Shown here: positions 14,974-17,514 of the stretch, piece after piece
Layout: each line of letters opens with the position of its first letter
Numbering within the stretch: the first letter of the stretch is position 1
Assembly: GCA_029953615.1 (NCBI GenBank)
Contig: CP124529.1
Coordinates: forward strand, 2,136,998-2,200,997
Origin: Pseudomonas putida
GTDB taxonomy: Bacteria; Pseudomonadota; Gammaproteobacteria; Pseudomonadales; Pseudomonadaceae
DNA length: 64,000 nt
Reading direction: 5' to 3'
Made by a program: the position numbers and the translations under genes
The notes under the pieces: generated by a model
What the model saw: the letters and a program-made list of their open reading frames with translations, nothing else
The model's database searches: none
What the model was told of the DNA's origin: nothing

Positions 14974-15068
14974 CCGGCCTCTTCGCGGGCTTGCCCGCTC
15001 CCACAGGAATATGCGCAAACCTGCCAGGCAGCGCAGTCCCTGTGGGAGCGGGCGAGCCCGCGAAGGGC
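14974..15068. repeat. REPIN, family A
   Basis: Facing copies of CCGGCCTCTTCGCGGGCTTG and GCGAGCCCGCGAAGGGCCG around about 30 bases, directly after the antiporter stop codon. Confidence 0.9.
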
Positions 15069-15180
15069 CGCGTAGCGGACCCAATGCACAAAAATATCAG
15101 CAGCATCCTACTTCGTTGCGAGCCATTTCCTACTCAGCCATACCATCTGACGAATTATCCTACGCACCGTGTCGAAGCCC

Positions 15181-15215
15181 GTCTGATTGTCCGGGGAAAG
15201 CCTGCTCTCTAGGCT
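15181..15215 (+). promoter_or_regulatory. Repeated promoter block, copy 1
   Basis: This 35-base block matches the block at 15790-15824 at 30 of 35 positions. It contains TTGTCC, a 17-base spacer and TAGGCT, a plausible -35/-10 pair. Transcription would begin near 15222, at the start of the structured leader of the DUF6124 gene. Confidence 0.6.
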
Positions 15216-15216
15216 T

Positions 15217-15412
15217 GCCGGGTCGCTGTCGGTTCAGCGATCGGGTGTGGAAACCCGGCAGGTAAATCGGAATAGCTGTTGTCATGGCAGCTGCGCGCGG
15301 GAGGCCGAATGGCCTGCCGGGGTTCCGATAGCCTGGCTTTCCACCCCGCGTGCAGCCGCCACCCTTCGCGTGGAAACGGATGGTGCCGGCCAACCTCTAT
15401 CGGAGTTTGGCT
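15217..15412 (+). ncRNA. Structured leader or small RNA upstream of the DUF6124 gene
   Basis: A 196-base region without a convincing gene but rich in stems. GCCGGGT (15217) pairs with ACCCGGC (15253), enclosing CGCTG/CAGCG. AGGCC/GGCCT forms a hairpin at 15302-15315. GGAAACCCGGCAGG (15249-15262) can pair with CCTGCCGGGGTTCC (15313-15326) at 13 of 14 positions. The 15253-15259 segment cannot be in both long stems at once, which is the layout expected of a switch or attenuator. It shares GGTGTrGGAAmCCC-like sequence with the minus-strand RNA candidate at 16393. The class is unknown; a phage C4-type antisense RNA is one possibility. Confidence 0.5.
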
Positions 15413-15706
15413 ATGAAAAAAATTGTTCCCAATCCACCTCTCCCCAACACCAAAGAACGCGCCTTCAGCCGCTGCGATGCCGGCCATCCACCTTTGTTCA
15501 CAGTAAACCCAGACGTCTCTGCCCACGACGCCCTGGTGCATGTCGCCCAGTACCTGCGCGGCGCCTACGACTGTGGCTACAAAGCCCTGGAACACCTGGA
15601 TGAAACCGGCAAGAGCCTGTTCTGGAGCAACCTGAATGCGCTCGAAATGGCAGAAGGATTGGTTGAGGCATTGCTGGATGGGATTGAGTCGCAGCCTGTA
15701 AGTTGA
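15413..15706 (+). CDS. DUF6124 (formerly DUF3077) family protein
   Basis: A 97-residue soluble protein starting MKKIVPNPPLPNT, with the family-like core VNPDVSAHDALVHVAQYLRG and a helical C-terminus. The family is common in Pseudomonas and has no known function. The ATG at 15413 follows CGGAG. It has a long structured leader behind a promoter block also used by the next gene. Base composition is more AT-rich than its neighbours, which suggests an accessory origin. Confidence 0.82.
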   Translation: MKKIVPNPPLPNTKERAFSRCDAGHPPLFTVNPDVSAHDALVHVAQYLRGAYDCGYKALEHLDETGKSLFWSNLNALEMAEGLVEALLDGIESQPVS

Positions 15707-15789
15707 AGCGCTTTTGCACAGAGCAGGCTGCGGTAACCGGCCTGCTCCGCCTCAATATAGGAAACGCCCTACAAAAAGAGTCAATCACC

Positions 15790-15824
15790 GTCTGATTGTT
15801 CGAGGAAACCCTTCTCCCTAGGCT
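15790..15824 (+). promoter_or_regulatory. Repeated promoter block, copy 2
   Basis: Same 35-base block as at 15181 (30 of 35 identical), with TTGTTC, a 17-base spacer and TAGGCT. Here the following hairpin is short (GGCCGC...GCAGCC) and the PBECR2-type gene starts within 35 bases. Confidence 0.6.
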
Positions 15825-15858
15825 CACTTGGCCGCACTGATCGCAGCCAGGTATCTCA

Positions 15859-16437
15859 TTGAGCCCCAACAGCCCCACCGCGAAAGTCGCCGAGAAGAAA
15901 GGCCAGAACACTTGGCTGGACGAGCAGCTACCCGACCTCAGAACGCTCGCGCGTGAATTGCGTACACGGGCTATCGAAGAATTGGCTGCTGCCGATTCGC
16001 ATGAAGCAGCAATCGAACTTGCTGCGCAGCATCTGGGTTTGAACAGTGAAGAAGCCAGCGTAGTAACCGTCAGAACGCCAATGGGCAACATCCGGATTCA
16101 ACGCAGCTGTATCCATCACATCGTCGAGAAGCGACAAGATGCCCGGGAACGCTATGTAAAAGTAGCGCTGGATACGCTGATCGGACCATTTGAGGTATGG
16201 CAGGTTGCCTACACCAATGACACCTACAGGCTGGCGTTCATTGGCGTGTACGAGACCAAGCGGCAGATGCTGGTGGTCGTGACACTCGATAACGGCAAAA
16301 TGCTGTGGAATTTCATGCAGTGCGATGCAAAGGCACTGAATAAGCATCGCCACGGCAAACTGCTCTACAAGCGGTACGCTTATGTGCCGAGCAAAGAAAA
16401 GGGCCACTGTAACCAGTGGCCCTGTGCTCGTGCTTGA
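15859..16437 (+). CDS. Stand-alone PBECR2-type nuclease-fold protein
   Basis: A 192-residue protein with a helical N-terminal region (1-65). The domain at about 66-172 resembles the phage Barnase-EndoU-ColicinE5/D-RelE-like (PBECR2) domain: VRTPMGNIRIQ, HHIVEKRQDARERY, GPFEVWQVAY, and LWNFMQCDAKALNK. This domain is usually the tail of phage head-morphogenesis or polymorphic-toxin proteins. His86/His87, Arg92, Arg96, Trp150 and Asn151 are candidate active-site positions. The start codon (TTG at 15859) is uncertain because no strong ribosome site is seen. The last codons overlap a terminator for the opposite strand. No obvious immunity gene is adjacent except the DUF6124 gene. The domain call is from remembered family sequence, not a search. 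Confidence 0.72.
   Translation: MSPNSPTAKVAEKKGQNTWLDEQLPDLRTLARELRTRAIEELAAADSHEAAIELAAQHLGLNSEEASVVTVRTPMGNIRIQRSCIHHIVEKRQDARERYVKVALDTLIGPFEVWQVAYTNDTYRLAFIGVYETKRQMLVVVTLDNGKMLWNFMQCDAKALNKHRHGKLLYKRYAYVPSKEKGHCNQWPCARA
16393..16422 (-). terminator. Rho-independent terminator for the minus-strand RNA
   Basis: The perfect 9-base stem GGGCCACTG/CAGTGGCCC has a four-base loop (16401-16422). On the minus strand it is followed by TTTTCTTT. It overlaps the last codons of the plus-strand PBECR2 gene and fits an RNA arriving from 16556. Confidence 0.75.
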
Positions 16438-16556
16438 TATTCGTATACACACCCTCAAGCCGGGGTGTGGAGGTCTCACCCGACGCTGATGATTCAGCCA
16501 TCGACGGGGTTCCTACACCAGCTATTGCCGCTGAATGGCAGCTGGTTTCGCGCTCA
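16393..16556 (-). ncRNA. Candidate structured small RNA
   Basis: About 164 bases on the minus strand with a promoter-like element upstream and a terminator at the end, and no convincing coding frame. It holds two strong stem-loops. ACCAGCT/AGCTGGT (16517-16546) encloses GCC/GGC. A long nested hairpin at 16464-16519 has outer arms GGTGTGGAGG/CCTACACC, then ACCCG/CGGGGT, then GCTG/CAGC (as read on the plus strand). It converges on the PBECR2 gene and resembles part of the DUF6124 leader. No Rfam family is assigned; the fold is reminiscent of phage C4-type antisense RNAs. Confidence 0.58.
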
Positions 16557-16562
16557 GGTGAA

Positions 16563-16591
16563 ACGCTAACAACACTCCTGGACTAAGTCAA
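16563..16591 (-). promoter_or_regulatory. Candidate promoter of the minus-strand RNA
   Basis: Read on the minus strand: TTGACT, a 17-base spacer, then TAGCGT. The -35 is good and the -10 weak, but of the same TAGxxT form as the two plus-strand promoter blocks nearby. Confidence 0.45.
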
Positions 16592-16633
16592 CGATGGCCC
16601 CATTGCGGAGGCCATGCATCAGATTACTTGGTG

Positions 16634-17412: not shown

Positions 17413-17514
17413 TACTGGCCTCTTCGCGGGCACGCCCGCTCCCACAGGGATCGCACAAGATTCAAGGCCAGTGCGGTACCTGTGGGAGCGGGCGTGCCCG
17501 CGAAGAGGCCAGTA
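17413..17514. repeat. REPIN, family A
   Basis: Inverted pair (TACTGGCCTCTTCGCGGGCA facing its complement) in the gap between divergent ycaC and LysR genes. This is unusual, because most copies here follow gene ends. It ends 28 bases before the LysR start codon. Confidence 0.92.

Follow-up and report, generated by a model that had tools for sequence, protein, structure and literature searches.

What links a bacterial gene for a predicted ribonuclease (RNase) to a structured RNA that is encoded on the opposite strand and ends inside that gene? The question is raised by a compact patch (15178..16633) within a stretch of 64,000 nucleotides (nt) of the Pseudomonas putida genome (assembly GCA_029953615.1, contig CP124529.1, positions 2,136,998 to 2,200,997), here called the window, to which the coordinates below refer. 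The patch has a G+C content of 56.3%, against 63.8% for the window, and just 0.6% of equal-sized segments are lower, in agreement with the first-pass annotation, where it was described as an AT-richer region holding two small genes, paired promoter blocks and a structured RNA that might together form a self-contained toxin/control or anti-phage module with phage roots, or a prophage relic. As far as comparison of sequences can tell, the patch is real but consists of two adjoining units, namely, a gene for a PBECR2-domain protein with the structured RNA, and a DUF6124-like gene controlled by a C4 antisense RNA. The first of these units is probably a toxin-antitoxin-like pair, in which the RNA would bind and restrain the RNase (we infer the RNase activity, the toxicity and the inhibition by direct binding). 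The idea of a self-contained toxin/control module thus finds support for the nuclease and the RNA, but not for all four parts as a unit.

The nuclease gene and its convergent RNA

The gene at 15859..16437 on the plus strand encodes a protein of 192 amino acids (aa), a predicted metal-independent RNase, which matches the Pfam family PBECR2 (PF18810) with 60 bits, well above the curated cut-off of 27.1, so that the PBECR2-type assignment made at first sight holds in a profile search. Among the close pairs listed, the ratio of nonsynonymous to synonymous substitution rates (dN/dS) is 0.10-0.20, indicative of purifying selection, on which a decayed prophage relic is rejected for the copy in the window. 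His87, located in a predicted helix, is invariant across 50 sequences, and the mean confidence (pLDDT) of the predicted structure is 85. The reading frame aligns from a leucine codon in eight relatives (L011, L012, L072, L084, L089, L091, L123 and L141) and begins with TTG at 15859, a sign that translation starts at TTG and is weak. In the part of PMC5512222 that bears on them, PBECR domains are described as predicted RNases that are fused to MuF and portal proteins, and the protein encoded here is, by its domain content and conservation, probably an RNA-cutting enzyme of the phage type.

The structured RNA is encoded on the minus strand at 16393..16555 (core 16555-16432; model match 136.6 bits); comparison with relatives places its 5' end at about 16555 and its 3' limit at about 16393, for a length of about 160 nt, and supports the initial description of an RNA that would be transcribed from its own promoter on the opposite strand and ends inside the nuclease gene. 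The promoter, at 16563..16591 on the minus strand, comprises TTGACT (16591-16586), a 17-nt spacer and TAGCGT (16568-16563), and a TTGAC or TTGAT box 35-39 nt ahead of the RNA start yields 73 matches over the 83 loci described below. An intrinsic terminator at 16400..16423, also on the minus strand, falls within the last part of the nuclease gene and is kept at this place in relatives; the terminator scan that lists it returned 2 terminator-like sites against 2.5 expected in shuffled sequence. A generic sigma-70 scan of the stretch lists neither this promoter nor the two paired promoter blocks on the plus strand, and therefore all three promoter calls depend on conservation.

In relatives fetched by protein similarity, the antisense strand 3' of the PBECR2 gene shows a similar plan: of the 21 best-match loci (L010-L030), 20 contain an RNA that starts with GAGCGCGAAA and converges with the nuclease gene, and both GAGCGCGAAA and GGTGAGACCTC are very strongly conserved in sequence. 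The fold consists of P1, hairpins P2 and P3, the P4 stem, a pseudoknot and the terminator, and in the alignment of 20 loci, the loop of P2 pairs with the loop of P3. All 7 pairs of this kissing helix show two-sided changes in the 20 loci, with 99.2% of cells paired; the same 7/7 are double-changed in 76 distinct sequences (96.5% paired) and in 88 distinct sequences that include enterobacterial and Vibrio plasmids (96.6% paired). In the set of 88, the covariation score of the helix is 0.473, against 0.199 for shuffled and at most 0.111 for slid alignments; the larger alignments were fitted to our model R1, so that the counts lean to P1-P3, and the kissing pairs lie outside that model. The 3' part of the RNA forms a second pseudoknot, of the H type. 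Among the 83 loci, a permissive locus-by-locus script detects the P4 stem (CACACCC/GGGTGTG, CTCCC/GGGAG or CATCC/GGATG) in 64 and the second pseudoknot pairing, PK2 (GCTTGA/TCAAGC or TCCTGA/TCAGGA), in 66. At the gathering thresholds of Rfam 15, no family was found for the RNA in the window, in 20 relatives or in 11 plasmid loci, and when this piece of the window was scanned permissively, nothing on the RNA strand scored above 18.8 bits, against a cut-off of 43; on these searches, a known RNA family is rejected. Comparison thus shows a covarying RNA structure that is conserved across loci, as are its promoter box and terminator.

Among 199 Pseudomonas genomes, PBECR2 is present in 21, the RNA in 33 and both in 20; the RNA thus accompanies 20 of the 21 PBECR2 genomes, compared to 13 of the 178 without PBECR2, and the 21st PBECR2 genome (G037) retains a mere remnant of about 50 nuclease residues (L030). 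A scan of 84,980 genomes with an RNA-only pattern yielded 78 loci, all titled Pseudomonas except for one labelled gamma proteobacterium L18, to which 5 viral contigs add up to the total of 83. In these, a PBECR2 gene is convergent with the RNA in 68 and never on the same strand, 12 have no PBECR2 match although their flanking sequence could be searched, and 3 are cut by a contig end. A class-wide search of 369 genomes recovered the RNA in the genome of the window and, beyond that, one weak partial match only.

Beyond Pseudomonas chromosomes, the PBECR2 protein matches 75 plasmid records, mostly from Enterobacterales and Pseudomonas, 39 of which were called conjugative. Thirteen of the 75 were picked through the protein match to span genera, and 2 more plasmids were added through an RNA match (one of the 13, L153, also appears in the RNA listing). 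In these 15 plasmid loci, model R1 places the RNA at the 3' end of the nuclease gene, with E values of 1.8e-11 or better in 14. Of the 13 protein-picked genes, 12 have the RNA and the 13th, on the Acinetobacter plasmid, has a weak match at the right place (E value of 0.049), with a nuclease 34% identical over the aligned part. The orientation and spacing of the pair are kept, with strong scores, on plasmids of Enterobacterales, Vibrionales and Pseudomonadales and, with weak scores, in Moraxellales. Upstream of the nuclease, the fetched plasmids carry a CopG-like gene, a gene for a 170-aa protein, or no adjacent gene on the same strand; in L150, L156, L158 and L163, the CopG-like gene overlaps the PBECR2 gene or the 170-aa frame stops a few bases ahead of it, and these neighbors could possibly provide a second layer of control. 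In the one Escherichia coli RefSeq record that contains the pair, the RNA region carries no annotation. Judged from this distribution, the RNA and the nuclease are a unit inherited together across orders and across replicons, chromosomes and plasmids alike.

Several neighborhoods deserve mention on their own account. At L146, the pair is flanked by mutS on one side and by a phage integrase gene on the other (Pfam), as at a prophage end, and a tRNA gene is found nearby in L017, L019, L020 and L029. In L160, an Acinetobacter pittii plasmid, a gene of the reverse transcriptase family directly precedes PBECR2 on its 5' side and tet(39) is annotated further along. A HigBA-like pair was seen by eye near the RNA in L061. 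In L121, a gene for a 259-aa protein (positions 259-1038 on the minus strand relative to the RNA), for which a Pfam search gives no match, takes the place of PBECR2 and is convergent with a diverged copy of the RNA.

Probable direct inhibition and its alternatives

In the scheme that we consider probable, the plus-strand gene would yield a small RNase of the PBECR2 fold, and the convergent minus-strand gene an RNA of about 160 nt with two kissing hairpins followed by the H-type pseudoknot. This RNA would bind the RNase and hold it inactive, in the manner of ToxI RNA on ToxN, and on loss of the RNA supply, the RNase would be freed. Inhibition through direct binding is favored because the RNA is a self-contained fold, with the structure conserved rather than the overlap between the genes, and because the RNA and the nuclease stay together while the other neighbors change.

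The fate of the RNA at loci that have lost the nuclease is informative in this respect. With 7 contig-end loci set aside, the median RNA score is 123.4 where the nuclease is intact (47 loci), 123.2 where a script flagged it as broken (17) and 99.95 where it is absent (12), the difference between intact and absent being significant at p = 0.0008. In L073, L075, L094 and L095, which have the RNA without PBECR2, the pseudoknot half is lost, and in L058 (genome G163), which by eye has the same DUF6124-like and isochorismatase-like neighbors but no PBECR2, otherwise invariant RNA bases are altered. The pattern of RNA scores together with the constraint on the nuclease fits what is expected of an antitoxin and a toxin, short of proof.

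A number of observations weigh against this interpretation. The invariant residues do not include the C-terminal Ser/Thr that PBECR active sites are described as having, and comparison of the predicted structure with the solved structures in the Protein Data Bank (PDB) recovered no BECR nuclease and no nuclease family at useful scores. In 31 of the 46 loci scored, the RNA reaches into the 3' end of the coding sequence, as an antisense role would also give. The two 3' helices have no more than 83.0% and 85.8% of their cells paired in the first alignment, part of the shortfall coming from a two-base shift of one group in that alignment. The pattern used for the RNA scan was learned from PBECR2-linked copies and may favor linked ones. 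Furthermore, well-kept RNAs occur without PBECR2 (L101, 129 bits; L081, 126.5; L119, 125.1), and since some solitary RNAs are preserved to this extent, the RNA may serve a separate function or may persist as an orphan antitoxin. Finally, YafQ-RelB (L094) and a fragment of the Fic family (L078) occupy the place of the nuclease according to Pfam, as does a YafQ-like gene in L047 by eye.

Alternatively, the RNA could be an activator, a guide or a dedicated substrate of the RNase, within a ribonucleoprotein or as a small RNA processed by PBECR2, for phage defense or gene control. The very strong conservation of GAGCGCGAAA and GGTGAGACCTC, the constant pairing, and the prediction in PMC5512222 that PBECR domains are RNases would all be compatible with such a role, which we nevertheless regard as unlikely: the RNA scores are equal whether the nuclease is flagged as broken or intact, which an antitoxin fits better than a cofactor, and a PADLOC search left the nuclease unmatched.

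A role akin to that of type I antitoxins, in which the 3'-overlapping antisense RNA would pair with the nuclease mRNA and block or destabilize it, as in the yonT/SR6 system, is quite unlikely and less likely than direct inhibition. The tail-to-tail arrangement in 68 of 83 loci, with the overlap of the RNA and the coding end mentioned above, is what this reading would predict, and in the abstract of PMC5848175, yonT/SR6 of Bacillus subtilis is likewise described as 3'-overlapping. However, some loci have no overlap and others up to 46 nt, what is conserved is the folding of the RNA on itself, with covariation inside the RNA, and pairing of the RNA with the start region of its own mRNA (-48.9 kcal/mol) is on average no stronger than with those of others (-51.1 kcal/mol; means over 44 loci, with the start approximate in 11). 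Compared with these convergent type I pairs, the arrangement of an RNA gene tail-to-tail with a toxin gene is shared, but here the protein is a 192-aa predicted nuclease, the coding overlap is variable or nil and the RNA is a conserved self-folded one.

It is distinctly improbable that the RNA is an independent regulator or an insertion hot spot, next to which toxin genes, mostly PBECR2, would insert by chance. Such independence would explain why 13 of the 33 RNA-bearing genomes lack a PBECR2 match and why YafQ-RelB or Fic is found at the same place in a few loci, but not why orientation and spacing are kept on plasmids across orders or why RNA scores drop where PBECR2 is absent.

Among known systems, the closest comparison is with type III toxin-antitoxin modules (ToxIN, CptIN, TenpIN), which also combine a small predicted endoribonuclease with a pseudoknotted RNA and also occur on plasmids and chromosomes. 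A pseudoknot, one of the type III hallmarks, is found here (kissing helix, 7/7; P4, 64/83; PK2, 66/83). By the definition excerpted in PMC5086642, however, the type III antitoxin RNA lies upstream of the toxin in a single operon, with a terminator in between, and is made of tandem repeats. In the present case, the two genes are convergent, with the RNA on the opposite strand in 68 of 68 PBECR2 loci, and have separate promoters; the RNA is single-copy (one match per source in the 83 loci, and no repeat array seen at the structured RNA in the window) and has a kissing-loop core; and the protein, which Pfam assigns to PBECR2, may differ in fold from the ToxN-type toxins. On its operon order and lack of repeats, as read from sequence, the pair is outside type III by definition. 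Among the matches listed in an open-licence library for RNA antitoxins (type III included), for convergent arrangements and for MuF toxins together with small RNAs, no such pair appears, and one paper of that library mentions PBECR2. If direct inhibition is indeed how the RNA works, the pair would add an RNA family that is unmatched in Rfam 15, along with a new arrangement of toxin and antitoxin, a BECR-fold RNase with a convergent kissing-loop RNA, and would account for the role of a widespread PBECR2 nuclease and for the survival of its host.

Possible phage counterparts of the pair

The phage roots proposed from the start for this nuclease find support in structural comparisons. Against viral structures, the predicted nuclease has one match with E below 0.001, to a polyvalent phage protein (1.3e-4); a minor capsid protein and the C-terminal domain of a MuF protein match more weakly. 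Viral contigs and genomes contain 15 distinct loci with a phage-type PBECR2 gene, all above the PBECR2 cut-off; 12 of the 15 proteins also exceed the Phage_Mu_F cut-off, with L177 and L181 below it and L189 unmatched. In 9 of the 15 (L149, L172, L173, L174, L176, L177, L179, L180 and L186), manual fitting yielded a look-alike RNA of the same plan where the gene ends, built from a closing stem and hairpins P2 and P3, with 4-7 pairs between the kissing loops; a script checked the presence and pairing of the pieces, and their order was judged by eye. In the same hand fit, none was seen in L170/L171 (one locus), and L169, L175, L181, L185 and L189 are ambiguous. Among L172, L176, L179 and L180, the kissing pairs are invariant, and 8 of 27 nested pairs are double-changed.

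Model R1 gives weak matches at the expected place and strand in L149 (E 4.5e-4), L174 (0.008), L172 (0.02) and L176 (0.36), along with matches at other places in L173 (0.02) and L177 (0.07). Shuffle tests on the phage loci are modest: 1/60 for L173 and L174, 2/60 for L177, 3/60 for L149, 5/60 for L176, 10/60 for L172 and L169, and 25/60 for L175. Common descent of the phage look-alike and the Pseudomonas RNA, which these fits and matches favor, is likely but not established.

The relationship with MuF polymorphic toxins and the PBECR domains of polyvalent proteins lies in the PBECR2 domain itself and in the RNA of like plan in 9 of 15 phage-type loci (hand fit); the form in Pseudomonas and on plasmids differs in that it is a stand-alone gene. 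An RNA partner of PBECR or MuF toxins receives no mention in the sections of PMC5512222 and PMC5576092 that concern them. We tentatively put forward, as a possibility that falls short of being probable, that PBECR2 nucleases, both stand-alone and MuF-fused in phage heads, share one ancient convergent kissing-loop RNA which would serve as RNA immunity: the phage would package the RNase in its virion and encode the RNA by which its lysogen is protected, and the pair would have been domesticated in bacteria and on plasmids, as a toxin-antitoxin module or for defense against phages. Under this scenario, a polymorphic phage toxin would have an RNA immunity factor, and a new class of RNA-inhibited RNases would emerge. 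The pair itself, if it acts as proposed, would suggest that some RNases carried in virions come with RNA immunity.

The adjoining C4 unit

The other unit of the patch, on the plus strand, includes two elements that the first-pass annotation missed. Between 15209 and 15366, Rfam identifies the C4 RNA target element c4-a1b1 (15209..15261; RF03163, 49.6 bits, gathering threshold 46.7) and the C4 antisense RNA (15280..15366; RF01695, 66.9 bits, gathering threshold 45). The C4 loop at 15324-15331 (TCCGATAG) is perfectly complementary over 8 nt to a predicted target, CTATCGGA, at 15397..15404, which overlaps the Shine-Dalgarno sequence of the next gene. This gene, at 15413..15706, encodes a small DUF6124/DUF3077-like protein of 97 aa. 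The gene reported in the first pass is therefore present, but its assignment to DUF6124 is weak, with 21.7 bits against a cut-off of 27 (PF19619) and 18.7 against 21 for DUF3077, both missed. In the open-licence literature (PMC), no mention of DUF6124 was found, DUF3077 occurs in one paper, and C4 antisense RNA is listed together with Pseudomonas in six papers and with putida in one.

Evidence for pairing between loop and leader comes from comparisons. In the sister locus L011, the C4 loop (CCTTCTC) and the leader (GAGAAGG) have both changed and are yet complementary over 7 nt, whereas loop and leader taken from different loci pair over 5 and 6 nt. Nine C4 matches above the cut-off, including that in the window, occur in the genome (a single contig of 5.76 Mb), along with one PBECR2 match. 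Inspection by eye shows C4 followed by a small gene in six loci (L001, L002 and L004-L007), and L003, L008 and L009 look truncated; Pfam assigns the gene in L007 and the second gene of L005 to DUF3077 above the cut-off, and finds no match at E 0.001 for the first genes of L002, L004 and L005. Across the nine loci, the longest complement of a C4 loop with its own leader averages 7.4 nt, against 4.9 nt with other leaders, and none of 20,000 permutations reaches this value; the complement spans 7-10 nt in seven loci and just 4 nt in L001 and L003. The nine C4 RNAs are apparently a set of separate RNA switches.

In phages P1 and P7, C4 acts on ant by a like pairing of its loop with the ribosome site, according to the portions of PMC12197685 and PMC8546580 that describe it. 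The C4 and a1b1 elements of the window resemble these in matching Rfam at the gathering threshold and in a loop that pairs with the ribosome site of the gene that follows; the difference is that the nine C4 RNAs here stand ahead of small genes of the chromosome rather than ahead of the antirepressor gene ant. Judging by these matches and complements, the C4 half of the patch is a known kind of control, in this case of chromosomal genes.

The two units also share a promoter sequence. Block 1 (15187..15215, plus strand; TTGTCC, 17 nt, TAGGCT) precedes the C4 element and the DUF6124-like gene, and block 2 (15796..15824, plus strand; TTGTTC, 17 nt, TAGGCT) precedes the nuclease gene. Taken as 35-base segments starting at 15181 and 15790, they are identical at 30 of 35 positions, as initially reported, with 22 the best of 60 shuffles, and a sequence like block 2 (up to 5 mismatches) recurs 767-782 nt ahead of the RNA start in eight related loci. 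This common block suggests co-regulation of the two genes. That the DUF6124-like protein is the antitoxin and all four parts form one operon-like module is nonetheless highly improbable, even though the promoters are similar and 10 of the 83 RNA loci (5 of them with both) have a C4 or DUF homolog that precedes the nuclease gene on its strand, because such homologs occur anywhere in just 33 of 83, mostly on the other side or strand, the enterobacterial loci fetched have other neighbors or none upstream, as noted above, and eight of the nine C4 loci in the genome lack PBECR2. A single self-contained module of four parts is rejected on this independent distribution of the C4 genes and the PBECR2-RNA pair. 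Inverted repeats of the type CGGGC...GCCCGCTCCCACAGG bracket the patch, at 14981-15065 and 17427-17500.

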